From Saccoglossus kowalevskii (taxonomy: Eukaryota; Hemichordata; Enteropneusta; Harrimaniidae): DNA of 29,584 nucleotides. The stretch spans positions 28,782 to 58,365 of the forward strand of contig NW_003109582.1 in assembly GCF_000003605.2 (NCBI RefSeq), in the 5' to 3' direction. Made by a program: the position numbers and the translations under genes. Position 1 is the first letter of the stretch. Each line of letters starts with the position of its first letter. Of the stretch, positions 3,571-29,584 are shown one piece after another. Below the pieces are notes generated by a model. The model did not search any database, had not been told where the DNA came from, and saw only the letters and a program-made list of their open reading frames with translations.

Positions 3571-5855
3571 TCAACTCAACGTTAACACCAGACTATATGA
3601 GAATCGTGGAGACTGATGTACAATCTGTGAACAGTTGGATCATGTAATTGTACATGCAACCTGCTACATTCACAGAATAACCAACATATTAATTGCCTAA
3701 TTTGCATAGTTATTGATTTTTAATTGACATAACAAGCGTTGGTAGGATTGTACAGGGTTACAAGTGAATGAATTACCTGCAACAATCAGAAGCTATGTCA
3801 TCAAAATCAATACAATTAACAACAACAGCAAAACACATTTTCAATGAAATAAAAATATTGAAAGAGTAATAAGTTAATTTTGTATTGCATGTGTCGAAAC
3901 TGCAAAACAAAGAAACAGAAATGAGGTGAACATAAACCATTGTACACACAATTCAACAGACAGCAAACAACAAACAAAGTGGAAATGTACACAAAAGTAC
4001 TATATGTGAAATTGTGAACTAAACTATCGGCCATTAAGTGTTTAAGTACTTTCAAAATGTTACTTTTAGTGAGAGGAGGGAGTCAGCACTATTACGATTG
4101 ACTTACATTTTCAATGCAGCTGTTGTAATGATTGTCCACTCTATGTTAGTCAGTGAATTGTTAATTTTTTTTATAAAAATTATTATACACACATTTAACA
4201 AAATATTTTACACATATTTAATTTTAGGAACTATTATTAAATATGTTCTAATGTGTTTAATATGCTGCATGGCATTGGTGCTTTAGTGTTAATGACTTTA
4301 TTAATGAGTGTATTAACATATTTTATTGATCGTAAGTTTTTTCAATATATTTCTGTCCAAATGATTCAATTTACCTGAGTTCTACAGTATTTTTAGCACT
4401 AATATTGAACTATGCAATTTATTAAATTAAGTTTAAGTTTCAAAATTTTCAATTGTTAGGCTGTTCCATTGTTGCCTAAAGTAATTTTAGCAAACATACA
4501 GGACACCTTTCTTAAGATTGTATGTTTCTGACTATATTTACAAATGCCTCTGTGAATGTAATTTACAAAATCATGTGATTTTAGCTAACCAATCAAATGT
4601 CACCTATCACCATGATTTGCATACTTTTTAATTGATTGATTTCATATCTATATATATATATACAGTATATACAGCACATTTTATGTATCTTTATAACCAA
4701 TAAATGAATAATTATCAGTATATTTAAATCATTTGCTATTCATAATTTATTCTAAGTGTGATGCATACTTTCAATTACAGTCTCTCAAACCCTTGTGGGA
4801 CTGTGTTTCAGTAAAGGACAGTTTTCACTCAGAATCTTTTGTTGGCATTTACTTGAAGAGTACTAAATCTTTTTTTCAGTCTGCATTTACTTGTTTAGTT
4901 GTTTTTTTGATAAAAACAGTTCAAAATTATCTCAGAACAGAGAGTGGAGAGTACAACTTAATCCTTACTATTTAAAAATGGGTCATTTTTTAGAGTTGTA
5001 ACACCCTGGATTAAGCTGTGTGAGTGCATGGTCACTCCACTCAATTAACTAAGTTGTTGATTTGTGATGGAATGCATGGTCATGTCTCACTATGACACAT
5101 ATTATTATCAGGTATGTGTGATATGTACATGTGATCAACTTTTCTATACATTACCAGTACAAGAGAAGTTGGTCAGAGCTTTGTTAAATAAAATATTTAT
5201 TCAATTACCGGTACATAGTGGAATTTACAGTACATAGATGCTCATTTCAAATTGACCCTCCATATAGGTGCTTTGATTTCATTTAACATTGAGTACATCA
5301 GTGTATTTATCAATTATCAGTTAACAATTTATAACAATGTTGAAAAAAATGGTTTCTATATTTGTGCTGCTTGTTCTAATCGGCCGAGGCTTTTAATATT
5401 TGGCATATCCCACTGGCTGAGTTCTTACTTGCTTCATAGTCTCATTTCTACTGGCCAACAGAAATATATAACAGCCATTTTTGGAGTCCTTGGTGTTATA
5501 CTTTAATATTGTCAACAATGTTAAAGGATAATTGTTGAATGAGATTCATCTCGTTTGAGATCGAGTACCAGAAAATATTTTTATGAATTTTTAGCACTAA
5601 TATTAAACAATTAATTAAACAGAGCTTTCATTCATATTGTTACGTTCTCACTGTGTCGCAAAATATCTTTTTTTCAACTGAATCAGTAAAGTACATATGA
5701 CAGCAGTTATGAATAATAATTAGAATAAGATATTTAAAATATCCTGCAAAACAATGATATCCACCATGAGCGATATCAGCACGTCCTCTAGTGGTGGCTG
5801 CTAAATACACAATCATTGCAAACCCCCCCCCCCCCACAAAAAACAAAAAAAAACA
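3571..5855. other. AT-rich non-coding stretch, probably intronic or intergenic
   Basis: No exon with a recognisable domain was found on either strand. The open frames here are short, AT-rich and lack similarity to known families. A short TA microsatellite lies at about 4645-4663, and a run of 13 C followed by an A-rich tract lies at 5823-5852, next to the retrotransposon's truncated 5' end. Further exons of the TSP1 gene could lie here but I could not identify any. Confidence 0.5.
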
Positions 5856-5876
5856 CTGGCTTGTGACTGCGAGAAT

Positions 5877-6861
5877 ATGTTTATCGGGGGTACCTCATCA
5901 ACGAAAGCTAATATTTGCAATGGGGTCCCACAAGGGTCAGTCCTAGGTCCCACACTCTTTCTCATTTATATAAATGACCTACCTAATTCTTCAATTTTCT
6001 ATTATTTCCATCTTCTCGCCGATGATTCCAATCTTTTTCATACTTATTCAGAAACAACAGGTGATATTGATCTTACTCTTGTGATATCAGAACCAAATAA
6101 GGTACAATTATGGTGCGACTCAAATAGATTAACGATCAACTGTAAAAAAAAACAAATTTCATTATTTTCAGGGGAAAAAAGGAAAACACCTTAATTAGAC
6201 TGTCTGGCTTTGTTATTATCCAAGGAACTGAAATAAATGAGGTAGATGATGTTACATTCGTGGGGGAAAGTTTTAGATAAATGCCTTACTTGGACAAATC
6301 ACATTAGTAAAATTAATAAACAGATCCGAATGAAATGTGGTATTTTATATAGACTCCGTCATATACAATGTATTACCCCTTAATGTTCTTTTGTACAATT
6401 CATTTATACTTCCCTATATCACTTATGGCTTAGAGGTTTGGGGTAGTACCTATTCCACGCATTTAAATTGTTTATTGGGTGCCCACTAGTATATAGTCCG
6501 TATAATGTAGTTTAAGCCACACAATGAAAATTCAGCTAATCGTTTTTCACACCTACATGTTCTTGATATTTCTAAACTTGATAAACTCTTAGTCGCTCTA
6601 TTCATTCATAACCTTACTTATCAAGATTCACCCCATTCATTGTGTGATTACTTTCGACCACTTGAACATCACCACGACACTAGACAAAAACGCCAACAAC
6701 ATTTCTATCTTGACAGAGCTAACACAACGTCGGGACAGTTTGCTACTTACTTTACAGGAGCAAAAATCTGGAACAGTATCCCCCTCCACATATGATCAAT
6801 ACCTAATGTATCGAAATTTAGAAAACTTTTAAAATTACATTTATTGCATGAAAATAATTGA
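5877..6861 (+). pseudogene. Decayed non-LTR reverse transcriptase, C-terminal half
   Basis: From 5877 the frame shows the reverse transcriptase block GVPQGSVLGP followed by LFLIYINDLP. Next is LADDSNLF, the catalytic palm motif (the usual F/YADD with L in first place). The frame breaks in an A-run near 6150. Beyond it, in shifted frames, are CLTWTNHI, LYNSFILPYITYGLEVWG and the C-terminal GAKIWNSIP pattern, which is standard for CR1/Jockey-type elements. The last segment (about 6511-6861) is open except for one TGA near 6794. At least two frameshifts or deletions (around 6150-6290 and 6450-6510) plus the nonsense codon make it inactive. The endonuclease and N-terminal reverse transcriptase parts are absent. 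Confidence 0.85.
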
Positions 6862-6903
6862 AGTTAATTATTAGCCATTATTTATTTCATTTATTCATTC
6901 TTT

Positions 6904-7257
6904 CCGGTCGCTGGGAGCATAGTGGTTGTCGCATCAGACTCATGATCAGTAGACCCAAGTTCAAATCCTACCTCGGGCTGAACATCAAAAGGGTCGACCC
7001 TTACTCAGGGTGAGTGTGCCACAGACTCAATGGGAAGGCCAATTCACTGGCCGAGATTCATTAACGAATGCAAAGTTGACCGGCCTTGGTTTGCAGCTAG
7101 TCTAGGGGAAGGCTAGGCCCATGTCCGACAACAGTGGTTTGCGACAGGAAGGGCATCCGGCAGTAAAAACCCCATGCCAAACAAAATACGATGCGGAAAT
7201 ATTATCCGCACCGGCGACCCCAGCAACTTGGAATAAAGCTGTAGAAGAAGAAGAAGA
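6904..7257 (+). mobile_element. tRNA-derived SINE, copy 1 (tail type A)
   Basis: The head has pol III boxes: an A-box-like GCATAGTGGTTGTCGC and a B box AGTTCAAATCC, in tRNA-like spacing, with CTCATGA in the anticodon-arm position (a CAT anticodon). The body contains gggtcgaccctt and ggtgagtgtgccacagact, shared with two other copies in this window. The tail contains aggaagggcatccggc, cggcgacccc and aataaagctg and ends in a GAA repeat, which looks like a tail borrowed from a partner LINE. attcattc on both sides (6893-6900 and 7257-7264) may be the target duplication, although it sits in low-complexity ATTC/ATTT sequence. Confidence 0.8.
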
Positions 7258-8479: not shown

Positions 8480-9955
8480 AAGATTGAGCCTACGACACGA
8501 TATAGTAATAAACAAGGAAGAAATTCGTTTTGTTGTGATAACATGCACATTTGTTTCTTGGCTAGATTGGTTTACAGTAAGTGGTTTGGTAAATTCACAA
8601 TTGAAAGAGGAAATGCAAATTAGAAAACATTTGGGAAAAAATCTCAATGTACTACATTTACTAATGACAGAGAGGGCGTAGTGCTTATACGTGAGATGAC
8701 AAACTGAACTAGGACAATGAAAAAAACACAAACGCGCAATGACTACCAACTAACATTTCCAGTTTTCACGTAAAGGCAGTGGTCGGCCAGGGCGGTCGTT
8801 GCGAAGCCTCGTGTTTGATCCATAGTATACAACGTGTGTAAATTAGTTTCCGTTTACTGCGACAGACGTTTGGTCTACGCCTTTTTCGTAATATACTAGA
8901 CTTCGCAGCGAGCTGAAAATCAACTACATCGTCTATATAAAGAATGGATCATTAATTCCGCAGGGGTGGTAGGTTAGTATTTGATCACATGAACAAAACA
9001 TATAGCTGTAAAGGAAAACAAAACAAAACAAGTGTCCGGTGAAAACTACAATAATAAAAAATGACTTTATTACACAACAATACATTCAGAGGATCTCTGA
9101 TAAATCCCTCTGGTAAAACAAGAACTACAACATTTAAAACTGCAACAACTTATGAAATCACAGGGTACTACCGTTCTCGGGAGAAGTGCTTATCTAATAG
9201 TATCTATCAGGTTATTAGAAATAAACACAATCATATTTTTCGTCTTCATCAATATTGGATTGACATTTTTTGCATTTTTTCTCAGGTTCAATTTTAGGTT
9301 TATTTTTTCGACCCAATATTATTTTTCAGGTAATAATACTGTAAACCACTTTGTTGCTACTCGCTATTTTAGCGAATGCCAAAATTAGTAGAATCTTAAT
9401 CTAACTAAAGTGCCAACAGTTTCATTGCAAAATAAAAAAAAATGAAAATTGACTCAAACTTTGTTTGCTACAAAATTGGAGTTCATTTCCAGAAATATTA
9501 AAGATTATAAAAAAAAAAGTGCAGAAAATTTGTGGGCAATTAAGTCTGTTGGTGAAAAGATTGATACAAAATTACGAGCCCAAAACTGTTTTTTAATGGT
9601 CTCAAACATATTTAATGGAGGAGACCATTTACAAGCTTGCTACGGCAGTATGCAGTTTACTTATGGTGTGTATAAAATGTATTTGTGGACATACACAAGA
9701 CATTTCACAATATTTTTGAGTATTTCTTTTTTCAAAATTGTATGAAGAGGTGGTGGTAGATCAGAATATTGTCATACCACGCGATAAAAGTTGGCCCCAC
9801 CCATTACCAAAATGAACTCATCCATGCTCTAGATCTCGAATAGTGAAGTGTTTCTGTGTTGCTGTTGTAAGGAATGGTAATAGCTTTTTATTCAACGCAT
9901 TTACCAATTGTGTTGGAAATACGGTCATACCGCGGCCATGTCTGGTAAGTAGGGC
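8480..9955. other. Non-coding stretch, no gene recognised
   Basis: Short open frames overlap on both strands here but show no domain. A TATA-like ctatataaag lies at 8934-8943. A weak tRNA-like pair (ggtcggccagggcggtc near 8780 and gtttgatcc near 8813) lies upstream of it. I see nothing else that stands out. Confidence 0.4.
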
Positions 9956-10615
9956 AAGATGTACTGCTATCATAGCGTACTTGATGGCAAGATGTACTGC
10001 TATCATAGCGTACTTGATGGCAAGATGTACTGCTATCATAGCGTACTTGATGGCAAGATGTACTGCTATCATAGCGTACTTGATGCCAAGATGTACTGCT
10101 ATCATAGCGTACTTGATGGCAAGATGTACTGCTATCATAGCGTACTTGATGCCAAGATGTACTGCTATCATAGCGTACTTGATGGCAAGATGTACTGCTA
10201 TCATAGCGTACTTGATGCCAAGATGTACTGCTATCATAGCGTACTTGATGGCAAGATGTACTGCTATCATAGCGTACTTGATGGCAAGATGTACTGCTAT
10301 CATAGCGTACTTGATGGCAAGATGTACTGCTATCATAGCGTACTTGATGGCAAGATGTACTGCTATCATAGCGTACTTGATGCCAAGATGTACTGCTATC
10401 ATAGCGTACTTGATGGCAAGATGTACTGCTATCATAGCGTACTTGATGGCAAGATGTACTGCTATCATAGCGTACTTGATGCCAAGATGTACTGCTATCA
10501 TAGCGTACTTGATGGCAAGATGTACTGCTATCATAGCGTACTTGATGCCAAGATGTACTGCTATCATAGCGTACTTGATGGCAAGATGTACTGCTATCAT
10601 AGCGTACTTGATGGC
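9956..10615. repeat. 33-bp minisatellite, 20 near-identical units
   Basis: Exactly 20 head-to-tail units of 33 bp start aagatgtactgc and end ttgatggc. The only variation I see is one G/C site near the unit end (ggc or gcc): G in 14 units and C in 6 (units 4, 6, 8, 13, 16 and 18). Each unit contains an inverted repeat, GTAC-t-GCTA / TAGC-GTAC around a TCA loop. Because 33 is a multiple of 3 and the unit lacks stops, several frames stay open on both strands; these are not taken as genes. Confidence 0.97.
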
Positions 10616-11992
10616 AAAACAACCAGGGTCGTTCTCCGGGGTCGTTTATTGTAAGCACGGGTCGTTCTGTTTTTACTGCTTTTATTCGTCTTCCATATTT
10701 TATTCAGATGGTTGTCTGCATTGTATATTTTGGACATATATAATTTGCCAACCATGGGCAGTGTTTTATTTTCTGATGGTCCACAGTCGAGGGACGACTG
10801 TGAATGGCCCAACCCTACCCCCGAGCCGCCTGGGCCATATGTCGTCTGCGTGCGATGACGTCATTATAGCGCTAAGTATAGCTACAGGAGGGAAGGCCGA
10901 TCTCTTAGCGAATGCTTATTCGACAGTGAATAAACTAGAGTGTATTGTAGAAGGGCAACCACACACGTGTTAAGGTTTGGGAGAATGGACCTCTATGAGA
11001 CGAGGGCGATACTAGTAACTTGTTTGTTCCTAGCTGTGCAGCATGGTATGGGCACATGAACTATAAGTTTTTATCGGTTGTCTTCTGCATTGTTCTCCCA
11101 GAATAGGGTAACAGGGGCACATTGTGATTGTCATTGTAATTTCGGAATGCCTTTTTATGTCGGTCAGTTAGTATGATAATTTTAACATATATATATTGTC
11201 AATCATTGTTTACTGTATATACTGCAGAAATCGAAATAAAATTAGGGAATTAGTGCAATTGTTGAACTTCCTAATGAAAGCTTCTAAACTGCTTGGCATA
11301 CGTTCTATGCCACAATAGTATCATAAAATGTATTTTCTCTTTAATTTCCTCTTGCTATCAAATGCCCGGTTTTACATGTGACTAGGGGGGTATGGATGAC
11401 TTCTTTCTCTGGTTACTTTATTAACTGAAAACAATACACAGTCACCCCAAAACCTGTCATATGATAAACAAATTTTATTTATTGTTTACTAGAATTCTCT
11501 AAGATACTGATTAAGCTACCGGTAATACTCTCCCTAGTATATTATTAGACCAGCTGTTACTGGAAATATAAAATTTGGGCTAAATAGAAAAATATTATAC
11601 AAATAATTCAGGTTTGTGAATTCTTATTTTGAATTATGAAACCATTTTACCAACTGAATATTATATAAATATTTGTTTAGCATTTTCACAATAGTGGATA
11701 CAATATGGTCAGAGATTAAGAGACCATTCAATTTACTCACTGGCTTGTCATTAATGTTGAATTTTTGTTTCATTGTTTTTTTTCTATTAATAATATGGAC
11801 ATATTTGGAAAAAAAACAAATGTTGTTGTTGTCACAAACAATTTAGTAAATAAAAAATTGATTTTAGTTTGTCAAATTGGAGAAGCTTATTTCCTAGAAA
11901 ATTACCCCTACCCCACCCATAATTTGTGGTTCTGTATAATACAACAAAAATGTATTTGACTGATGTAATCTACATTGAGTCAATTCAGCTTT
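10616..11992. other. Intergenic stretch with a CpG-richer patch
   Basis: 10616-10980 is visibly richer in GC and CpG than its surroundings (for example ggtcgttctccggggtcgtt and cccccgagccgcctggg) and contains a CRE palindrome. From about 11000 to 11992 the sequence is AT-rich, without a recognisable exon, leading up to the 21-bp array. Confidence 0.4.
10856..10863. promoter_or_regulatory. Consensus CRE palindrome TGACGTCA
   Basis: A perfect 8-bp CREB/ATF site lies inside the CpG-richer patch at 10800-10940, 240 bp after the 33-bp minisatellite. Perfect CREs near CpG-rich DNA are often promoter-associated, but no transcript start or exon is evident here. Confidence 0.3.
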
Positions 11993-14361
11993 AATGGTGG
12001 TGATGTGACATGTGATGGTATGAATGTGACATGTGATGGTATGAATGTGACATGTGATGGTATGAATGTGACATGTGATGGTATGAATGTGACATGTGAT
12101 GAATGTGACATGTGATGTGATGAATGCGACATGTGATGGTATGAATGTGACATGTGATGTGATGAATGTGACATGTGATGGTATGAATGTGACATGTGAT
12201 GGTATGAATGTGACATGTGATGGTATGAATGTGACATGTGATGTGATGAATGTGACATGTGATGGTATGAATTTGACATGTGATGGTATGAATGTGACAT
12301 GTGATGGTATGAATTTGACATGTGATGGTATGAATGTGACATGTGATGTGATGAATGTGACATGTGATGGTATGAATTTGACATGTGATAGTATGAATGT
12401 GACATGTGATGGTATGAATGTGACACATGATGGTATGAATGTGACATGTGATGGTATGAATGTGACATGTGATGGTATGAATGTGACACATGATAGTATG
12501 AATGTGACATGTGATGGTATAAATGTGACATGTGATGTGATGAATGTGACATGTGATGGTATGAATGTGACGTGATGGTATGAATGTGACATGTGATGGT
12601 ATGAATGTGACATGGGATGGTATGAATGTGACATGTGATGGTATGAATGTGACATGTAATGGTATGAATGTGACATGTGCTGGTATAAATGTGACATGTG
12701 ATGGTATGAATGTGACATGTAATAGTATGAATGTGACATGTGATGGTATGAATGTGACATGTGATGGTATGAATGTGACATGTAATAGTATAAATGTGAC
12801 ATGTGGTGGTATGAATGTGACATGTGATGGTATGAATGTGGCATGTGATAGTATGAATGTGACATGTGATGGTATGAATGTGACATGTGATGTGATGAAT
12901 GTGACATGTGATGGTATGAATTTGACATGTGATGGTATGAATGTGACATGTGATGTGATGAATGTGACATGTGATGGTATGAATTTGACATGTGATAGTA
13001 TGAATGTGACATGTGATGGTATGAATGTGACACATGATGGTATGAATGTGACATGTGATGGTATGAATGTGACATGTGATGGTATGAATGCGACACATGA
13101 TAGTATGAATGTGACATGTGATGGTATAAATGTGACATGTGATGTGATGAATGTGACATGTGATGGTATGAATGTGACGTGATGGTATGAATGTGACATG
13201 TGATGGTGTGAATGTGACATGGGATGGTATGAATGTGACATGTGATGGTATGAATGTGACATGTAATGGTATGAATGTGACATGTGATGGTATAAATGTG
13301 ACATGTGATGGTATGAATGTGACATGTAATGGTATGAATGTGACATGTGATGGTATGAATGTGACATGTGATGGTATGAATGTGACATGTAATAGTATAA
13401 ATGTGACATGTGGTGGTATGAATGTGACATGTGATGGTATGAATGTGGCATGTGATGGTGTGAATGTGACATGTAATGGTATGAATGTGACATGTGATGG
13501 TATGAATGTGACATGTGATGGTATGAATGTGACATGGGATGGTATGAATGTGACACGTGATGGTATGAATGTGACATGTGATAGTATGAATGTGACATGT
13601 GATAGTATGAATGTGACAGTATAAATGTGACATGTGATGGTATGAATGTGACATGTGATGGTATGAATGTGACATGTGATGTGATGAATGTGACATGTGA
13701 TGGTATGAATGTGACATGTGATGGTGTGAATGTGACATGTGATGTGATGAATGTGACATGTGATGGTATGAATTTGACATGTGATGGTATGAATGTGACA
13801 TGTGATGTGATGAATGTGACATGTGATGGTATGAATTTGACATGTGATGGTATGAATGTGACATGTAATGGTATGAATGTGACGTGTGATGGTATGAATG
13901 TGACATGTGATGGTATGAATGTGACATGTGATGGTATGAATGTGACATGTGATATGAATGTGACATGTAATAGTATAAATGTGACATGTGATGGTATGAA
14001 TGTGACGTGTGATGGTATGAATGTGACATGTGATGGTATGAATGTGACACATGATGGTATGAATGTGACATGTAATAGTATAAATGTGACATGTAATGGT
14101 ATGAATGTGACATGTGATGGTATGAATGTGACATGTAATAGTATAAATGTGACATGTGATGGTATGAATGTGACATGTGATGGTATGAATGTGACATGAT
14201 GGTATGAATGTGACATGTGATAGTATGAATGTGACATGTGATGGTATGAATGTGACACATGATGGTATGAATGTGACATGTAATAGTATAAATGTGACAT
14301 GTGATGGTATAAATGTGACATGTGATGGTATGAATGTGAAATGTGATGGTATGAATGTGAT
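11993..14361. repeat. 21-bp minisatellite, about 112 units, with higher-order structure
   Basis: The unit consensus is tatgaatgtgacatgtgatgg. Recurrent variants have gtgatg in place of ggtatg, aatttgaca, agtata, and acacatga. A block of variants from about 12361 to 12850 repeats at an offset of 607 bp (about 12968 to 13457), including the same 2-bp-short unit (gaatgtgacgtgatgg) at 12564 and 13171. The 607 bp correspond to 29 units minus 2 bp. The array ends about 105 bp before the start codon of the sulfotransferase gene. Because 21 is divisible by 3, long open frames run through it on both strands; I treat these as artefacts. Confidence 0.95.
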
Positions 14362-15439: not shown

Positions 15440-15870
15440 TAATGCAGTTGGTTTTTTTTTTTTTGTGCCAGGCGACAGTCTCGGACATTGAATGTCACTG
15501 TTGTCTCTCCTGACTTTTTTTTTGTATGTGCAAATTGCAAGTGCTAGTGATGACACATAGTGCATTTTTGCCACAGAAGTCATATTCATATTTGGGACTA
15601 CACAGGGCTGTGTGGCCATCTCTCTATAAAATAGCAATTTTAACGCGCTATCCTGGCGTCAACCAGGCTCGGTCGAACACAGGCACCTGCGTTCCCTCAA
15701 AGTCGCATTTGTGAGTGAATGTATCTCCCATTGAATCTGTGGCACACTCACCCAGGGTAGGGGTCGACCCTTTTTGATGTTCAGCCTAAGGTAGGATTCG
15801 AACTTGGGTCTACTGGTCATGAGTCTGATGCGACAACCACTAGGCTACCAGTGACCGGTAATGCAGTTGG
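15440..15870. repeat. 12-bp target-site duplications around SINE copy 2
   Basis: taatgcagttgg occurs at 15440-15451 and again at 15859-15870, exactly bracketing the SINE. This is the footprint of LINE-mediated insertion. Confidence 0.85.
15452..15858 (-). mobile_element. tRNA-derived SINE, copy 2 (tail type B, antisense in intron)
   Basis: On the minus strand the head begins CCGGTCACTGG and has an A-box-like TGGTAGCCTAGTGGTTGTCGC region and an intact B box GTTCGAATCC. The body (GGGTCGACCCCTACC, GGTGAGTGTGCCACAGA) matches SINE copy 1. After about 170 bp the sequence departs completely from copy 1 and ends in a different tail (GAGACTGTCGCCTGGCACA) followed by a poly(A) run, seen as T at 15452-15464 on the plus strand. 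The intact boxes and perfect duplication suggest a fairly recent insertion. Confidence 0.88.
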
Positions 15871-18050: not shown

Positions 18051-18110
18051 ATATTGTACCAATATATTTGAGTATGATTTCAAATTATTACTGTGTTTTT
18101 TTACATTCAG

Positions 18111-18854
18111 AGAGAAACTAACGTAAGCAGAGAAGTCCCCAATCATACCTACATGGACAGACTGAATTTAGTAGAATCCAATTGTAATACACCTACAGTG
18201 GAACTGCCAGTGTATAAACTCCAACAACTTATTGTTGATGATGAATATAAATTCATATACTGCTGGATTCCAAAAGTTGCGAGTGGAAACTGGAAAGTGG
18301 TATTAAAGAACCTAAAAGAATTTTACACCAATAAAGACTGGAAACCAAATTTACGAGATCGCAATATGGGTCTACCAACACTGAACAAGTATTCATCAGT
18401 GGGGATAAAGACCCGCTTGAAAAGTTATTATAAATATGTGTTTGTACGTCACCCTTTAGAAAGGCTGCTATCGGCTTATAGGGATCGCTTTGAGAGACGA
18501 AGGACAAACATAAGCAGATTGCCTATTACAAATTTAAGTAGCTTTGTTAACTATATTAAGGATACAATGAATATTCACTGGAGTCCAATGACAGACTTAT
18601 GTGATCCATGTGATATTAAGTTTGATTTTATTGGACATTTTGAAACTCTCAGAAAGGATGTAGACTATCTTTTAAATTTATTCAATATAAGTTCTGTTGC
18701 GAGTTTCCGATCTGTTAGTAGCTATGCTACCAACAGTTCTGATCAATCACTGCTACATAAATACTATTCATCTCTGTCAGAGGATGACATGCTCTTTTTA
18801 CAAGGTCTTTATGCAAAAGATTATCAACTTTTTGGATATGATCCTCAAATCTGA
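18111..18854 (+). CDS. Carbohydrate sulfotransferase exon 3: catalytic domain (CHST8-14 / Sulfotransfer_2 family)
   Basis: This terminal exon has 247 codons plus TGA, with acceptor ttttttacattcag and phase 0 entry. The assembled protein is 307 residues. It shows the family's two PAPS-binding motifs: the 5'-phosphosulfate loop CWIPKVASGNWK (about residues 111-122) and the 3'-phosphate site FVRHPLERLLSAYRDRF (from about 171). It also has DFIGHFETL and the C-terminal YAKDYQLFGYD typical of the HNK-1, chondroitin-4- and dermatan-4-sulfotransferase group. These enzymes transfer sulfate from PAPS to sugars on proteoglycans or glycoproteins in the Golgi lumen. The 5' loop has Ser-Gly where vertebrate members usually have Cys-Thr. 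Several N-glycosylation sequons (NHT, NIS, NLS, NSS) fit a luminal location. The exact acceptor sugar cannot be told from sequence. Confidence 0.92.
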   Translation, partial: RETNVSREVPNHTYMDRLNLVESNCNTPTVELPVYKLQQLIVDDEYKFIYCWIPKVASGNWKVVLKNLKEFYTNKDWKPNLRDRNMGLPTLNKYSSVGIKTRLKSYYKYVFVRHPLERLLSAYRDRFERRRTNISRLPITNLSSFVNYIKDTMNIHWSPMTDLCDPCDIKFDFIGHFETLRKDVDYLLNLFNISSVASFRSVSSYATNSSDQSLLHKYYSSLSEDDMLFLQGLYAKDYQLFGYDPQI

Positions 18855-20830: not shown

Positions 20831-20924
20831 TCACTGCTCTTCAATGCTCTGCTTTTTCTCTGAAGTAATATTAAATCCTTTTTTCAACATAACAGTCTCA
20901 ATACTTTTGTCTTGGTCTTTTTCT
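20831..20924 (-). CDS. MICAL-family protein, last coding exon
   Basis: On the minus strand the acceptor TTTGCTACAG precedes an exon that enters in phase 2 and completes a Lys codon (AA|A) from the upstream exon. The translation reads EKDQDKSIETVMLKKGFNI and ends IEEQ, stop TGA at 20833-20831. The E-rich segment leading into ETVMLKKGF matches the conserved end of MICAL proteins, where a short tail follows the bMERB domain. This also shows that the in-frame TAA just past the upstream exon (at 21458-21460) is intronic. Confidence 0.85.
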
Positions 20925-21479: not shown

Positions 21480-21594
21480 TTTAGTCGTTCCTCCTCCAAC
21501 AAAGCAACAAGTGCATCTCTTTGTTCAACAACTTCTAACATCTCAGCCAACAATTTTTTCTCTTCATCTAATTCCTTTTTGCTTTTCTTGGAAT
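21480..21594 (-). CDS. MICAL-family protein, bMERB domain exon (third helix)
   Basis: The acceptor CGTTTCAG precedes 115 nt in phase 1 (G|AT, Asp) and the donor is AAA|GTATGT in phase 2. The translation contains KKSKKELDEEKKLLAEMLEV, then VEQRDALVALLEEERLK, the highly conserved last helix of the bivalent Mical/EHBP Rab-binding (bMERB, DUF3585) domain. The domain binds Rab8/10/13/35-type GTPases and, in MICALs, takes part in autoinhibition of the N-terminal flavin monooxygenase that oxidises actin. The MLEVVEQRD..VALLEE wording is closer to MICAL than to EHBP1. Confidence 0.9.
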
Positions 21595-21700: not shown

Positions 21701-21830
21701 GATCACTGGTAGTGGTAATCCAACGTTGGTTGAACACCAAAAAGGGTCTATCTCTACCCTGGGTGAGTGCGCCACAGACTCAATGGTTAGTCCAAATTCA
21801 CTGGCAGAAATTCATTCGCTTTGTGTTTCA
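21701..21830 (+). mobile_element. SINE fragment, copy 3 (internally deleted)
   Basis: It begins gatcactggtag like the SINE head, then jumps past most of the tRNA region to a body shared with the other two copies: ggttgaacaccaaaaagggt, accctgggtgagtgcgccac and agactcaatgg. The B box is lost, so it cannot be an active pol III unit. It lies in a 434-bp MICAL intron (21595-22028), antisense to the gene. Confidence 0.65.
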
Positions 21831-22028: not shown

Positions 22029-22102
22029 CCTGTGTGGACATTTTGTCTCTCAATTCTTGTTGTAATCTACTGTGTCTGTCTTCTAACTCCAATTCTTTGG
22101 CT
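22029..22102 (-). CDS. MICAL-family protein, bMERB domain exon (middle helix)
   Basis: The acceptor is CCTTTATTTGACAG and the donor CAGG|GTGAGT. The exon is 74 nt, entering in phase 2 (AG|A, Arg) and leaving in phase 1. The translation AKELELEDRHSRLQQELRDK is the signature central helix of MICAL bMERB domains (ELELEDRxSRLQQELR). Only 28 bp of non-repeat intron lie upstream of it before the 20-bp minisatellite begins. Confidence 0.92.
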
Positions 22103-22130: not shown

Positions 22131-23310
22131 TCATGTTGTTGCACGTGACCATCTGATGTTGCACATATCCATCTGATGTTGCACATAGCCATTCGATGTT
22201 GCATATAGCCATCTGATGTTGCACATAGCCATCTGATGTTGCACATAGCCATCTGATGTTGCACATAGCCATCTGATGTTGCACATAGCCATCTGATGTT
22301 GCACATAGCCATCTGATGTTGCACATAGCCATTCGATGTTGCACATAGCCATTCGATGTTGCACATAGCCATCTGATGTTGCACATAACCATCTGATGTT
22401 GCACATAGCCATCTGATGTTGCAGCCGTCTGATGTTGCACATAGCCGTCTGATGTTGCACATAGCCATCTGATGTTGCACATAGCCATCTGATGTTGCAC
22501 ATAGCCATCTGATGTTGCACGTAGCCATCTGATGTTGCACGTAGCCATCTGATGTTGCACATAGCCATCTGATGTTGCACATAGCCGTCTGATGTTGCAC
22601 ATAGCCATCTGATGTTGCACGTAGCCATCTGATGTTGCACGTAGCCATCTGATGTTGCACATAGCCATCTGATGTTGCACATAGCCATCTGATGTTGCAC
22701 ATAGCCATTCGATGTTGCACATAGCCATCTGATGTTGCACATAGCCATCTGATGTTGCACATAGCCATCTGATGTTGTACATAGCCATCTGATGTTGTAG
22801 CCGTCTGATGTTGCACGTAGCCATCTGATGTTGCACGTAGCCATCTGATGTTGCACGTAGCCATCTGATGTTGCACATAGCCATCTGATGTTGCACATAG
22901 CCATCTGATGTTGCACGTAGCCATCTGATGTTGCACGTAGCCATCTGATGTTGCACATAGCCATCTGATGTTGCACATAGCCATCTGATGTTTTAGCCGT
23001 CTGATGTTGCACGTAGCCATCTGATGTTGCACGTAGCCATCTGATGTTGCACGTAGCCATCTGATGTTGCACATAGCCATCTGATGTTGCACGTAGCCAT
23101 CTGATGTTGCACATAGCCATCTGATGTTGCACATAGCCATTCGATGTTGCACATAGCCATCTGATGTTGCATATAGCCATCTGATGTTGCACATAACCAT
23201 CTGATGTTGCACATAGCCATCTGATGTTGTACATAGCCATATGATGTTGCACATAGTCATCTGATGTTGCATATAGCCATTCGATGTTGCAAGTAGACAT
23301 CATGTTGTAG
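22131..23310. repeat. 20-bp minisatellite, about 58 units, occupying an entire MICAL intron
   Basis: The consensus is gatgttgcacatagccatct. Common variants are cacgtag for cacatag and attcgatg for atctgatg. Three units are 4 bp short (16 bp, ending agccgtct) at about 22415-22430, 22791-22806 and 22987-23002. The intron is 22103-23349 and the array covers about 95% of it. Because 20 is not a multiple of 3, one 60-bp cycle reads through all three minus-strand frames without stops, giving open frames near 390 codons that I do not regard as coding. Confidence 0.97.
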
Positions 23311-23349: not shown

Positions 23350-23446
23350 CTTATAGATAATTCTTGTTCAACTCTGACCAAAGCATTCTTTTCATTCACT
23401 AATGTGAACCATTCCTGCATCAAAACTGTTTCATCTTTTTCTCCCA
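23350..23446 (-). CDS. MICAL-family protein, bMERB domain exon (second segment)
   Basis: The acceptor is CATTTTTTTCAG and the donor ATAAG|GTGAGT. The exon is 97 nt, entering in phase 1 (G|TG, Val) and leaving in phase 2. The translation contains LMQEWFTLVNEKNALVRVEQ, the most conserved stretch of MICAL and EHBP1 bMERB domains (the WF.LVNEKNALVR core). It joins the 22029-22102 exon as ELSIR-AKELELED without breaking frame. Confidence 0.93.
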
Positions 23447-23575
23447 CTGAAAAAAATGAGAATGTAATGTTTCCAAAATAAAAAAAAATATGAAATCATG
23501 TGGATATCTCCAAACACGGTCATGTCAAAACACACAGGCAGATAGGGAACTGATAGAGATAGAAAGAGAACTCAC

Positions 23576-23596
23576 CAGGTGAAGAAGGTACTTCAT
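23576..23596 (-). CDS. MICAL microexon, copy b (21 nt)
   Basis: A 21-nt symmetric phase 1-1 exon lies between CTATATATAAAG and GTGAGTTC on the minus strand. It encodes DEVPSSP when preceded by a G. Including or skipping it keeps the frame. It falls in the linker between the first and second helices of the bMERB domain. A close paralogue lies at 25169-25189 with related flanks. The acceptor is weak (purine-interrupted), which suits regulated inclusion. Confidence 0.65.
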
Positions 23597-24154
23597 CTTT
23601 ATATATAGAAAAGGCAAATAGAAATGAACAGAAATTTAAAGAAATAATATTGAAATGACAACAACAATGAGAGAACATGGATAGCCATAGAAATTGTGGA
23701 TTGGATTGCATGTACAAGAATACTTTAATCATAATTTTGTAATTTATATAATGCTTATTTTTTTACAACATGACTACATATTGTACTCTATCACATGTTT
23801 ATCACATTAGTGTTACATCATATACTGCCTGAATGTTGTCCCAAGCTTCCGGGGGTTATATATGGTCTAATAACCACAGATTATTTTGGCAAGCTCAAGT
23901 ATGTATTTTCGAAATTATTATTCAGTTATTAGGAATTTAAAAAAAACCTAATGAATTTAAGAAATTATTACGAACAAGCAGAATCACCACACAGCGCATG
24001 CAAAATGTTCTTGTGAAATAGAAGTGTGGAGTGAACAAAATTAGCATATGAGAAGAGCACAATGATATATTATATTAGTATTCGGTATTATTAGTTTCAC
24101 TTTTAACAAGGTATTGTTTCATTTTTTTGGAATGTGGAATAATGATTTTGATGA

Positions 24155-24304
24155 ATATATAATCCCATGATATTTTCTCAGTTTGGCATCAGGAGACATG
24201 TGTGATTATTGCCATGGTAACCCAAGGCTTGGATTGATACACTGGCAGTAATTATTCATGTCTGCTAATGGCAATTTAAAAGAAAATATCGTGGGATTAT
24301 ATAT
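24155..24304. mobile_element. 150-bp MITE-like element with 24-bp terminal inverted repeats
   Basis: 24155-24178 (atatataatcccatgatatt + ttct) and 24281-24304 (agaaaatatcgtgggattat + atat) are inverted complements at 23 of 24 positions, around about 102 bp without coding capacity. The ends lie in TA-rich DNA, so a TA-type target duplication cannot be delimited. The right end abuts the 53-bp tandem array. It lies within a MICAL intron. Confidence 0.7.
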
Positions 24305-24308
24305 AAAT

Positions 24309-24893
24309 ATACACCTCAATATAACCCATTCTTTACAAGTTGACTACACATTATACTCTATATACACCTCAATATAACCCATTCTTTACAAGTTGACTAC
24401 ACATTATACTCTATATACACCTCAATATAACCCATTCTTTACAAGTTGACTACACATTATACTCTATAGACACCTCAATATAACCAATTCTTTACAAGTT
24501 GACTACACATTATACTCTATATACACCTCAATATAACCAATTCTTTACAAGTTGACTACACATTATACTCTATATACACCTCAATATAACCAATTCTTTA
24601 CAAGTTGACTACACATTATACTCTATATACACCTCAATATAACCAATTCTTTACAAGTTGACTACACATTATACTCTATATACACCTCAATATAACCAAT
24701 TCTTTACAAGTTGACTACACATTATACTCTATATACACCTCAATATAACCAATTCTTTACAAGTTGACTACACATTATACTCTATATACACCTCAATATA
24801 ACCCATTCTTTGCAAGTTGACTACACATTATACTCTATATACACCTCAATATAACCCATTCTTTGCAAGTTGGCTAAACATTATATTCTATAT
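24309..24893. repeat. 53-bp minisatellite, 11 units, in a MICAL intron
   Basis: The units start at 24311 and recur every 53 bp to 24841, with consensus acacctcaatataacccatt then ctttacaagttgac and tacacattatactctatat. Variants sit in blocks: aacccattc in units 1-3, aaccaattc in units 4-9, and aacccattctttgc in units 10-11. A lone diverged relative of half a unit (ttacaacatgactacatatt) lies at about 23762-23790. The array sits between the two 21-nt microexons. Confidence 0.96.
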
Positions 24894-25168
24894 TCAAACA
24901 AACTATTTTAGAGTTATACATGTGATAATATTCAAACGTGACATCCAAATTTATTCCTGAAGAAGAGTTTTATGGACATTGAGCATACACACAGAATGTG
25001 AATATTTAAAACCTTTAATTAGCTAATTTAATTAGCATAAACAAAATGGTGGATTTGATGACATACTCTAACAAGTACATCATTTGACACCAGTCATTGG
25101 CTGCATATATAGCCATATAAATGTTCAAATCAAGGATATAATTTAGATATTGTGTTTTGAGTACTCAC

Positions 25169-25189
25169 CAGGTGAAGAAGATACTTCAT
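25169..25189 (-). CDS. MICAL microexon, copy a (21 nt)
   Basis: On the minus strand it lies between TTTTCAAAATATAAAG and GTGAGTAC and is 21 nt, phase 1-1, encoding DEVSSSP. It differs from the copy at 23576-23596 by one base (P to S), and the upstream intron flank (TTGCCTTTTC, TATAAAG) is shared. With both included the linker reads DEVSSSP-DEVPSSP; with one, seven residues; with neither, exon 25765-25972 joins 23350-23446 directly in the same frame. Confidence 0.65.
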
Positions 25190-25764
25190 CTTTATATTTT
25201 GAAAAGGCAAATATACATGAAAGTTAAAAATGCGATAAACAGGAATTTCAGAAAATGAAATGGAAATATAAAAGAATGGGTGGACATGACTAAGGACAAT
25301 GTTTACAACTCAGTTTGCAATGGCAGAAAGTACTGAGATATAGAAGAGGAAAGGCACTTTAAATGCAAACAAGAACCATGCATCAATTTGTAATTATGAA
25401 AAAAACATTGGAAAAAATGTGTATTAATTAACTATTAATTAATGGTTATCAAATATTACAATATTCTAATGAAGAGGAATTCCCATAGAGTATGTACTAT
25501 AGAGAGTGAATGTTCTAACTATGAAATGATTGGGTCTCTGAAAGTGTAAAACAAATGATTTTCCATGCAGTGTCTTTGAGATAATCAATCTTAACACATT
25601 GTTGATTACTGCCATCTATAACCTGAATTAGAATTAGAAAAGATTTACAAGTACACTGTAGACAAAATATTAAAGTAGTGATTTTAAATAATCACAATTT
25701 GAGTGACAGATGACACCAATCACAGGTATGAATGTGCCTGCTGTTTATGTGATAAATTACAAAC

Positions 25765-25972
25765 CTGACTCGCCCCGTAATGTCTTCTCAACTTCAACAC
25801 CTCTTACTTCTAACTGTTTTTGTTTGACTTCCACCTCCTGTAACTGTCGTTGTATCTCTTGTGCCAGTCGTAACCGTTTTAGCTCCTCTTGTCTATGCTG
25901 TTTTTTAACAGCTTTCTGCACCCTTTTTGTTAACTTGGCATTCACCTCAGAGTCAGAAAGCTGTGGTTTGCC
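25765..25972 (-). CDS. MICAL-family protein, bMERB domain exon (first helix)
   Basis: The acceptor CTACACTTAG (minus) precedes 208 nt, entering in phase 0 and leaving in phase 1 at GAGTCAG|GTTTGT. The translation is a charged, coiled-coil-like helix: KLTKRVQKAVKKQHRQEELK, then EIQRQLQEVEVKQKQLEVRG and VEVEKTLRGES. The IQRQLxEVEVKQ..LE.RGVE.EK.LRG pattern is the first helix of the bMERB domain. Exons for the monooxygenase, CH and LIM domains, if this is a full MICAL, must lie to the right, beyond this window or beyond the 39-bp minisatellite. Confidence 0.9.
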
Positions 25973-26133: not shown

Positions 26134-26900
26134 TATGCAGCATTGTCTATATCTCATGTCTCCATCTGAATCTACATAGCAATGTCTCTATGTCAAGTCT
26201 CTATCTGCCCCTGTGCAGCATTGTCTCTATGTCAAGTCTCTATCTGAACCTGTGCAGCATTGTCTATCTGAACCAGTGCAGCACTGTCTCTATGTCAAGT
26301 CTCTATCTGAACCTGTGCAGAATTGTCTCTATGTCAAGTCTCCATCTGAACCTGTGCAGCATTGTCTCTATGTCAAGTCTCCATCTGAACCTGTGCAGCA
26401 TTGTCTCTATGTCAAGTCTCTATCTGAACCTGTGCAGAATTGTCTCTATGTCAAGTCTCTATCTGAACCTGTGCAGAATTGTCTCCATGTCAAGTCTCCA
26501 TCTGAACCTGTGCAGCATTGTCTCTATGTCAAGTCTCCATCTGAACCTGTGCAGCATTGTCTCTATGTCATGTGTCCATCTGAACCTGTGCAGCATTGTC
26601 TCTATGTCTAGTCTCTATCTGAACCTGTGCAGAATTGTCTCTATGTCAAGTCTCCATCTGAACCTGTGCAGCATTGTCTCTATGTCTAGTCTCTATCTGA
26701 ACCTGTGCAGCATTGTCTCTATGTCATGTGTCCATCTGAACCTGTGCAGCATTGTCTCTATCTGACCTGTGCAGCATTGTCTCTATGTCAAGTCTCCATC
26801 TGAACATGTGCAGCATTGTCTCTATGTCAAGTCTCCATCTGAACATGTGCAGCATTGTCTCTATGTCAAGTCTCCATCTGAACATGTGCAGCATTGTCTC
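26134..26900. repeat. 39-bp minisatellite, left block
   Basis: The unit is tctctatgtcaagtctccat followed by ctgaacctgtgcagcattg (39 bp), with a 26-bp deletion form that skips from tctctat to ctgaac. The block holds about 19-20 units. It starts in diverged units near 26134, 160 bp upstream of the first MICAL bMERB exon (minus sense), and is cut at 26900 by the solo LTR. Confidence 0.95.
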
Positions 26901-27947
26901 TGTTAAGGCCAAATCAACATTTTAATGTGTATTTAATTGCTATTATATATTTTGTATTTACTGCATGCTATGCTATATATTATTCACTGTAAACTTGGAT
27001 AAATTCCATGTGGCGAATAGCGCCACCCAGAGTTATTTGTGAAAGTTATTAATAGTATTAAGGTCAGTTCTTATCTGAGATAAAAAACTGATGAGTTGGC
27101 AGTGTGACTCAGCTAACTGTACGGTACGGATGTACGCTTTTGAGGTCCATCAATACCTTGATATTGCAAACTGTTTCACTTGGAATTGATTGGCTAGGAA
27201 GGTCTACAAACACGGTGAGTGTTTAATGAATCACATGTGTTCTTTTGGCAGTTTAATTTTAGTGCCATTATGGTGCAAATATATCGTACACTGTTTACTG
27301 TGCCATCACATTGATTTTTAAGTGTAAATAACTTCACTATAGCCAGAACAACCAAGATTTCAGTATAGATTTGAATAAGTTTGAATAAGTTTGAATAAGT
27401 TTTATTATACTCGTTTAGTTTGCATAGTTTATGTTAGGAAACTTTGTTCGTTTCAAGTACAACCATTGTTAGTGTACTAGTTGCACTGTCTATTTCTCAG
27501 AGCTATTTATAGAACTTAAACTTGTCCATGCATGCATATAGATATTAGGTTACTTGGAAGAGTCATTTCACTCATATTACAATTATACAGTGTCTTCGTT
27601 TAAGACAGGCTGAGCATTATAAGCCATGAAGTACTATGTGTATTTTTAGATATTTTACACTGTGTGTACATCACTAGAAATGTATTTGCTTTATTTTATC
27701 ATTGTATGTGTATTTATTATTTTGTTTGTGTTACATTTCAGTTAATCGTCATTCTACATTCTTTGTATGGAATAAAGAGTCGTGATACAGAAAACAGACT
27801 TTTGTTCAATTAGTGTGGAAGAACGCATTGGTGAGGGGATGACTTCCTGGTGTAATCAATACATAGTGGCAAGCTTATTCACTGTGTCAGCCATTAATTA
27901 GGCGTTATACGGGACCAGTAAAACTTGGAGTTTGCTTGTGCACTACA
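26901..27947 (+). mobile_element. Solo LTR of an LTR retrotransposon (1047 bp)
   Basis: The element begins TGTTAAGGCC and ends GCACTACA (TG...CA termini, TGT/ACA inverted). The host sequence GTCTC is present directly before it (26896-26900) and after it (27948-27952). Because the minisatellite unit reads cattgtctctatgtc, removing the element and one GTCTC restores the array exactly, so GTCTC is a true 5-bp target duplication. AATAAA lies at 27771-27776 and a TATATAT stretch near 26974. A 10-bp sequence, ttgaataagt, is repeated three times at 27371-27400. No internal coding domain is present, so I infer an LTR-LTR recombination product. BEL/Pao or Gypsy origin cannot be told apart. Confidence 0.8.
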
Positions 27948-29584
27948 GTCTCTATGTCAAGTCTCCATCTGAACATGTGCAGCATTGTCTCTATGTCAAG
28001 TCTCCATCTGAACCTGTGCAGCATTGTCTCTATGTCAAGTCTCTATCTGAATCTGTGCAGCATTGTCTCTATCTGAACCTGTGCAGCATTGTCTCTATGT
28101 CAAGTCTCCATCTGAACATGTGCAGCATTGTCTCTATGTCAAGTCTCCATCTGAACATGCGCAGCATTGTCTCTATCTGAACCTGTGCAGCATTGTCTCT
28201 ATGTCAAGTATCCATCTGAACCTGTGCAGCATTGTCTCTATCTGAACCTGTGCAGCATTGTCTCTATGTCAAGTCTCCATCTGAACATGTGCAGCATTGT
28301 CTCTATGTCAAGTCTCCATCTGAATCTGTGCAGCATTGTCTCTATCTGAACCTGTGCAGCATTGTCTCTATGTCAAGTATCCATCTGAACCTGTGCAGCA
28401 TTGTCTCTATCTGAACCTGTGCAGCATTGTCTCTATGTCAAGTCTCCATCTGAACATGTGCAGCATTGTCTCTATGTCAAGTCTCTATCTGAATCTGTGC
28501 AGCATTGTCTCTATCTGAATCTGTGCAGCATTGTCTCTATCTGAACCTGTGCAGCATTGTCTCTATGTCAAGTCTCCATCTGAACATGTGCAGCATTGTC
28601 TCTATGTCAAGTCTCCATCTGAACATGTGCAGCATTGTCTCTATGTCAAGTCTCTATCTGAATCTGTGCAGCATTGTCTCTATCTGAACCTGTGCAGCAT
28701 TGTCTCTATGTCAAGTCTCCATCTGAACCTGTGCAGCATTGTCTCTATGTCAAGTCTCTATCTGAACATGTGCAGCATTGTCTCTATGTCAAGTCTCTAT
28801 CTGAACCTGTGCAGCATTGTCTCTATGTCAAGTCTCCAACTGAACCTGTGCAGCATTGTCTCTATGTCAAGTCTCTATCTGAATCTGTGCAGCATTGTCT
28901 CTATCTGAACCTGTGCAGCATTGTCTCTATCTGAACCTGTGCAGCATTGTCTCTATGTCAAGTCTCCATCTGAACCTGTGCAGCATTGTCTCTATGTCAA
29001 GTCTCTATCTGAATCTGTGCAGCATTGTCTCTATCTGAACCTGTGCAGCATTGTCTCTATGTCAAGTCTCCATCTGAACCTGTGTAGCATTGTCTCTATG
29101 TCAAGTCTCTATCTGAATCTGTGCAGCATTGTCTCTATCTGAACCTGTGCAGCATTGTCTCTATGTCAAGTCCCCATCTGAACATGTGCAGCATTGTCTC
29201 TATGTCAAGTCTCCATCTGAACATGTGCAGCATTGTCTCTATGTCAAGTCTCTATCTGAATCTGTGCAGCATTGTCTCTATCTGAACCTGTGCAGCACTG
29301 TCTCTATGTCAAGTCTCCATCTGAACCTGTGCAGCATTGTTTCTATGTCAAGTCTCTATCTGAACATGTGCAGCATTGTCTCTATGTCAAGTCTCTATCT
29401 GAACCTGTGCAGCATTGTCTCTATGTCAAGTCTCCAACTGAACCTGTGCAGCATTGTCTCTATGTCAAGTCTCTATCTGAATCTGTGCAGCATTGTCTCT
29501 ATCTGAACCTGTGCAGCATTGTCTCTATCTGAACCTGTGCAGCATTGTCTCTATGTCAAGTCTCCATCTGAACCTGTGCAGCAT
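27948..29584. repeat. 39/26-bp minisatellite, right block, running off the window
   Basis: This continues the 26134-26900 array after the LTR. Here 39-bp and 26-bp units alternate in higher-order patterns: a 169-bp period (three 39s plus two 26s) at about 28060-28520, and a 598-bp period linking 28531-28934 to 29129-29532 with only a few differences. The array continues past the window end. The MICAL intron holding it is therefore at least 3.6 kb long. Confidence 0.95.

Follow-up and report, generated by a model that had tools for sequence, protein, structure and literature searches.

Two nearly identical 21-nt microexons lie between two coding exons of a gene on the minus strand of the DNA analyzed (the window; the final 29584 bases of a 58365-base contig, from a 572-Mb assembly of 4830 contigs). 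With a confidence slightly above even, they are best explained as one cassette microexon, neuronal and eMIC-regulated, that was duplicated in tandem within a MICAL2/3-type gene and of which either copy is optional. As judged from the sequence, the two segments are likely to be real optional exons, and the balance tips somewhat toward their control by eMIC-domain factors.

The gene encodes a C-terminal bMERB domain (Pfam PF12130) of a MICAL2/3-type protein, and the window carries its 3′ end, exons E1 to E5 with the stop codon (Table 1). E1 ends in phase 1 (..LRGES|G) and its splice joins in frame; E2 has a strong acceptor, TTTTTTTCAG, and the donor GTGAGT. The spliced product scores 141.3 bits against PF12130 without the inserts and 139.1 bits with both (cut-off 24.6), and covers positions 1–133 of the 134 in the profile. 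Among solved chains, phmmer gave 158 bits for MICAL3, 126.9 for MICAL-cL, 71.1 for MICAL1 and 63.9 for EHBP1, MICAL-L being absent from the chains listed. The gene is nearer to MICAL2/3 than to MICAL1 or EHBP1, and the MICAL bMERB identity given in the original prediction is borne out by the profile match and by MICAL3 as the nearest solved chain. For the full protein, with the monooxygenase, CH, and LIM domains of the N-terminal part, we infer MICAL identity only, because the contig ends at the window end and the upstream part is out of view.

TABLE 1. Exons of the MICAL-type gene and elements of the two microexon copies (positions in the window).
Feature	Position	Strand	Length (nt)	Description and basis
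E1	25765..25972	-	208	Pre-bMERB segment and helix 1; tblastn with human MICAL3 bMERB, E 5.9e-15
mA	25169..25189	-	21	Microexon, phase 1-1, DEVSSSP
mB	23576..23596	-	21	Microexon, phase 1-1, DEVPSSP; 20/21 identical to mA
E2	23350..23446	-	97	Start of helix 2; tblastn and in-frame joins
E3	22029..22102	-	74	bMERB continued after E2 (helix 2); tblastn and frame
E4	21480..21594	-	115	Helix 3 region; tblastn and frame
E5	20831..20924	-	94	C-terminus and stop TGA; tblastn (query tail approximate), first residues also by HMMER alignment
Conserved block, copy A	25159..25221	-	63	57/63 ungapped identity with copy B; genome search
Conserved block, copy B	23566..23628	-	63	57/63 ungapped identity with copy A; genome search
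AG-free zone before mA	25192..25289	-	98	Pyrimidine-rich
AG-free zone before mB	23599..23722	-	124	Pyrimidine-rich; longest of 1041 on the strand outside tandem arrays

The positions, lengths, sequences and phases that had been predicted for both 21-nt segments were confirmed on the sequence, as were the good GT donors (GTGAGT in both copies). Introns of 575, 1572, and 129 nt separate E1, mA, mB, and E2. The insertion point of either copy falls between the Ser and the Val of ..LRGES|VGEKDE.., seven residues being added by each. Joining E1 to E2–E5 through none, A, B, or A and B gives open frames of 195, 202, 202, and 209 residues with the same stop, and the anticipated gain of 0, 7, or 14 residues without a change of frame therefore holds for all four joins. 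The two remaining frames of each microexon read MKYLLHL or contain a stop.

The duplication extends beyond the exon to a conserved block, which reaches from 32 nt upstream of the microexon to 10 nt downstream. In copy A it comprises a branchpoint-like TTCAT at -32, TATTTGCCTTTTC at -24 to -12, the acceptor ATATAAAG, the exon, and GTGAGTACTC. All 13 bases of TATTTGCCTTTTC, with a TGC at -20, are identical between the copies; the six differences fall at -27, -25, -11, -9, exon position 9 (Ser to Pro), and intron +7. Local alignment of mA and mB with 400–500 nt of flank scored 51, the maximum among 200 first-order Markov controls being 20. Beyond the 63-nt block there was no above-chance similarity (54, 274, and 108 of 300 controls reached the observed flank scores), and no larger residual duplication around the microexons was detected in the flank comparison. 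The suggestion of duplicated symmetric microexons is supported; the copies of the block share 57 of 63 bases, and both exons have phase 1-1. Either the duplication is old and selection has kept only 63 nt, or only a 63-nt unit was copied; in either scenario the unit spans the branchpoint-like TTCAT to the donor.

A genome search with the block (E ≤ 10) found at least two places, both at this locus; the two candidates were both scored, and counts are lower bounds, very common words having been skipped. A dispersed-repeat origin of the block was rejected on the two places of the genome search and on finding no comparable match elsewhere in the window. A degenerate codon pattern built on GAG/GTG codons, which mA and mB do not use, matched 0 places in the genome and therefore has no bearing on them. 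Viral contigs gave 17 pattern matches and 0 confirmed relatives, and neither the Rfam scan of the window (gathering threshold) nor the tRNA scan gave a match. Candidates of the form AG-(3–51 nt)-GTRAGT number 35 on the minus strand and 25 on the plus strand, and those of exactly 21 nt number three (mA and mB among them) and 0, respectively. As a lone AG..21 nt..GTRAGT segment comes cheaply by chance, the evidential weight lies in the duplicated block and its architecture.

The acceptors, which the original prediction missed, are weak AAG sites behind an A/T-rich spacer. By an approximate matrix mA scores -2.3 and mB 2.2, against 4.8 for E1 and 7.5 for E2, which places mA and mB at about the 54th and 88th percentile among the 1563 AGs of the strand; mB is thus only moderately weak. 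The weakness of the microexon acceptors is probably meaningful. Both are preceded by long AG-free zones (Table 1), against 29–59 nt at the five ordinary exons. On the minus strand outside the arrays the median gap between AGs is 11, gaps of at least 98 occur in 11 of 1041 cases (5 of 303 in the gene region) and of at least 124 in one. On the plus strand 13 of 1050 gaps reach at least 98 and two at least 124, and long zones thus occur without an exon; those before mA and mB are rare, not unique. Among the 50 minus-strand AGs with an AG-free zone of at least 60, a GTRAGT follows within 58 nt in three, and two of the 50, exactly mA and mB, also have a TGC within 30 nt upstream. A GTRAGT donor follows 0 of 50 such AGs on the plus strand.

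The stretch from -98 to -12 (87 nt) is 73.6% pyrimidine in both copies, a value reached at nine positions on the minus strand, eight of which abut mA or mB, and at none on the plus strand. This stretch was picked after the data had been seen, and the enrichment depends on the window chosen: the ranks of A and B are 3.6% and 0.2% for -60 to -10, 4.1% and 0.6% for -80 to 0, and 19% and 5% for -40 to 0. No CUAAY branchpoint occurs within 130 nt upstream (-130 to -1) of either microexon; the TTCAT at -32 is of the weaker yUnAy type. UCUC is found upstream of mB only. Over the whole E1–E2 interval TGC is not enriched (24, control mean 22), and the conserved TGCC of both blocks also fits the MBNL-type YGCY.

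The published eMIC code, in the sections drawn on, combines a weak acceptor with a nearby UGC, a long pyrimidine tract and an extended AG exclusion zone; fly targets are described there as having weak donors and short introns, and the weak donor is said not to hold for mammalian targets (PMC8797185). The size of mA and mB, 21 nt at phase 1-1, falls within that of eMIC microexons (about 3–27 nt, frame-preserving), and their surroundings appear largely to agree with an eMIC (Srrm2/3/4)-dependent neuronal microexon code, apart from the strong CUAAY-type branchpoint, which neither copy has.

An SRRM_C profile search of the same genome gave nothing at E ≤ 0.001. At E ≤ 10 two places were found, the better with 20.8 bits (cut-off 27, whole-genome E 0.33), and two bacterial control genomes also matched at this threshold. 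The better place is an RS-rich open frame ending ..RKRRDSPSHLEPRRIT.., an end that we take to resemble the eMIC core. In hmmscan SRRM_C is the sole Pfam family for this frame at E ≤ 1 (E 0.0015; 19.6 bits, below 27; profile 12–55 of 67), and beyond it the contig continues with 10 kb of N. The RS-rich open frames with this sub-threshold match (L011:1498-1812, minus strand) are a candidate Srrm234 gene with an eMIC domain.

The original prediction placed the insert between the first two helices of the Rab-binding domain, and the HMMER alignment agrees: the insert separates the parts of MICAL3 that form helix 1 and helix 2. In the MICAL3 construct 1841–1990, helix 2 is reported to begin at K1891, about eight residues past the insertion point (own count, plus or minus one or two), and the loop placement follows from this start and the alignment. 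The structural accounts drawn on assign helix 1 and the first half of helix 2 to Rab site 1. They describe helix 1 of autoinhibited MICAL1 as wedged into the monooxygenase and the inter-helix loops as flexible, and the crossing angle of helix 1 and helix 2 in the Rab10 complex differs from that in autoinhibited MICAL1. Further literature used comprises PMC5026484, PMC11557892, PMC12626424, PMC7935315, and PMC10250204.

The aligned loop of MICAL1 reads RRQSSSP, and the alignment pairs the SSSP of the insert with S960-S961-S962-P963 (960–963 as counted from residue 918). PAK1 phosphorylates MICAL1 at S817 and S960, by which autoinhibition is relieved and interaction with Rab7A and Rab10 increased, according to the relevant part of a review (PMC9982024). 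The predicted addition of phosphosites gains weight from this, as the aligned MICAL1 loop is SSSP and holds a reported PAK1 site. Because so few residues are involved and the setting for a kinase differs, the match is taken as a lead rather than as homology; it may be a coincidence of two flexible loops. For a Ser stretch preceded by DEV a proline-directed kinase would be expected, a class different from that acting on MICAL1. Alternative use of mA and mB is plausible, and so is Rab tuning or phospho-switching by the insert. A published account from zebrafish describes the Rab11 GAP EVI5B as binding RAB11 similarly with and without its microexon, and for this reason an effect on Rab binding is not to be assumed.

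The only other bMERB gene found by genome search (C1210:1455200-1457030) served as a control and is about equally near to MICAL3 (65.8 bits) and EHBP1 (65.6 bits). It has a phase-1 intron of about 245 nt in the same loop, without a second GTRAGT, and no extra seven residues there. From this shared intron, its position looks ancestral and the microexons look particular to the MICAL copy within this genome. The human MICAL3, MICAL-cL, and MICAL1 chains also lack the seven residues at this place, and the skipped form thus has the family length. At the same loop of the second gene (L006:5941-6188) there is a TAGCAG tandem acceptor, where NAGNAG choice could add or drop one residue.

In the proposed mechanism, each copy acts as a symmetric exon of 21 nt whose donor is strong and whose acceptor is weak. 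Both copies would probably be skipped by default, as an exon this short, with an A/T-rich spacer between its AAG acceptor and the pyrimidine tract, is difficult for U2AF to define. In neurons, an eMIC-domain factor of the Srrm2/3/4 family would probably promote inclusion, acting via the UGC/pyrimidine element at -24 to -12 and the upstream tract. Each included copy would add DEV(S/P)SSP, and with it one Ser-Pro site, to the helix 1–helix 2 hairpin loop of the bivalent Rab-binding domain; the loop would grow by 0, 7, or 14 residues and carry up to two such sites. As a likely outcome, helix 1 and helix 2 would be arranged differently, and phosphorylation would control both the first Rab site and the contact by which helix 1 exerts autoinhibition. 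A bolder form, which is tentative and on the whole unlikely, would be a neuron-specific splicing dial, in which an eMIC microexon was duplicated with its whole 63-nt unit and 0, 1, or 2 phosphorylatable DEVxSSP modules are placed in the MICAL hairpin; if so, splicing would install a Ser-rich switch of the kind that human MICAL1 has at S960.

Control of the cassette by a program other than eMIC (RBFOX, QK, or MBNL in muscle, or Elav) is rather unlikely. A 51-nt cassette exon of Mical3 near the coiled coil is described as co-activated by RBPMS, RBFOX2, MBNL, and QK in smooth muscle cells in the section drawn on (PMC12721327), and the 2318-nt E1–E2 interval holds three TGCATG (reached by 25 of 300 controls), 13 TCTTY (13 of 300) and 13 TTTNTTT (0 of 300), besides the TGCC at 25209 and 23616, which also fits YGCY. 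The T-rich introns inflate the TTTNTTT count, however, ACTAAY (3; 56 of 300 controls) and YGCY (15; 63 of 300) are not enriched over the interval, and the 63-nt blocks hold neither TGCATG nor ACTAAY; the only instance of either motif in the 200 nt around the exons is a TGCATG 193 nt upstream of mA. Constitutive inclusion, by which nearly all transcripts would carry DEVSSSPDEVPSSP and the duplication would merely have lengthened the loop, would account for the strong donors, the in-frame double form and the conservation of the exon and its splice signals between copies; it is nevertheless improbable, given acceptors that are weak and oddly built and a skipped form of family length.

According to published abstracts, mutually exclusive splicing typically acts on tandem duplicated exons that match in length and phase, and such use of mA and mB had been suggested. 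It is not borne out here and is very improbable, because a single residue distinguishes the peptides, the frame survives double inclusion as well as double skipping, and the 1572-nt intron between the copies excludes simple steric interference. An equally low probability is given to the view that the segments are no exons at all and represent either a repeat of the intron without coding function or cryptic sites that arose by chance. Chance does readily yield single AG..GTRAGT segments (60 candidates with both strands counted), and the same intron also holds a minisatellite and an imperfect palindrome; yet the block turned up at just two places in the genome search, both in one intron. Both copies have the fitting phase, their exons differ at a single nucleotide of 21, and no above-chance similarity extends past -32 and +10.

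The minisatellite between mA and mB has a 53-bp unit (24307-24893, 11 copies, 98% matches), a degenerate copy of which was seen by eye near 23755-23800. The palindrome adjoining it (24155-24304, about 150 bp, self-inverse match 75%) is perhaps a MITE. Large tandem arrays with units of 20, 21, 33, and 39 bp and multiples (22137-23291, 11997-14360, 9953-10617, 26138-26901, and 27948-29584) crowd the introns and the intergenic DNA, and the window end, which is the contig end, lies inside one of them. On the plus strand, two open frames (1457-1699 and 2328-2516) with spondin-like thrombospondin type 1 domains belong to a separate gene, an open frame at 18078-18854 has a Sulfotransfer_2 domain (150 bits), and a reverse-transcriptase fragment at 5805-6191 (RVT_1, 38.5 bits) is a retroelement remnant. 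Three related dispersed repeats, 82–90% identical (6901-7062, 15726-15861, and 21717-21816, one of them in the E3–E4 intron of the MICAL gene), were not picked up by the Rfam and tRNA scans of the window.

Through MICAL, signals from Rabs and plexins lead to the oxidative disassembly of actin, and the C-terminal helices of the protein serve both in Rab binding and in keeping the enzyme inactive. A duplicated insert at the helix 1–2 turn, if its use is optional, would illustrate one way in which a lineage adjusts this switch from tissue to tissue. The pair also offers a natural experiment on microexon regulation, as the similarity of the copies outside the exon is confined to 32 nt before it and 10 nt after it, which define a testable minimal element. 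Tandem exon duplication and neuronal microexons are already known kinds; this instance, a MICAL microexon pair, was not found in print among the matches listed in the literature searched (mainly open-access texts).

Several symmetric microexons are also combined, as in mA and mB, in the mini-exon A microexons of LAR-RPTPs and in the schistosome micro-exon genes. The LAR-RPTP mini-exons, unlike mA and mB, are not known to be duplicates of one another, and the schistosome genes encode secreted-protein families. Neuronal eMIC microexons, as far as the sections drawn on describe them, share with mA and mB the short symmetric exon, the weak acceptor, the nearby UGC, the long AG exclusion zone and the pyrimidine tract; here there is a tandem pair without a CUAAY branchpoint, under a putative regulation, and compared with the fly targets the introns are longer and the donors stronger (PMC8797185). 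Tandem duplicated exon substitution events likewise have an exon duplicated within a gene, but those treated in the part cited are described as mutually exclusive, whereas mA and mB, at 21 nt and nearly identical, would allow double inclusion (PMC9741552). The mammalian Mical3 cassette is also a regulated exon beside the coiled-coil/bMERB region of a MICAL gene, for which altered autoinhibition is suggested as well in the section cited; it differs in size (51 nt, 17 residues) and in its smooth-muscle program (PMC12721327). The phospho-loop of MICAL1 around S960, as covered in part of a review, shares the helix 1–2 location and the aligned SSSP (PMC9982024); in the chains compared its Ser stretch lies within the chain and follows RRQ, whereas in the window it is carried by a separate small exon and follows DEV, without RRQ.
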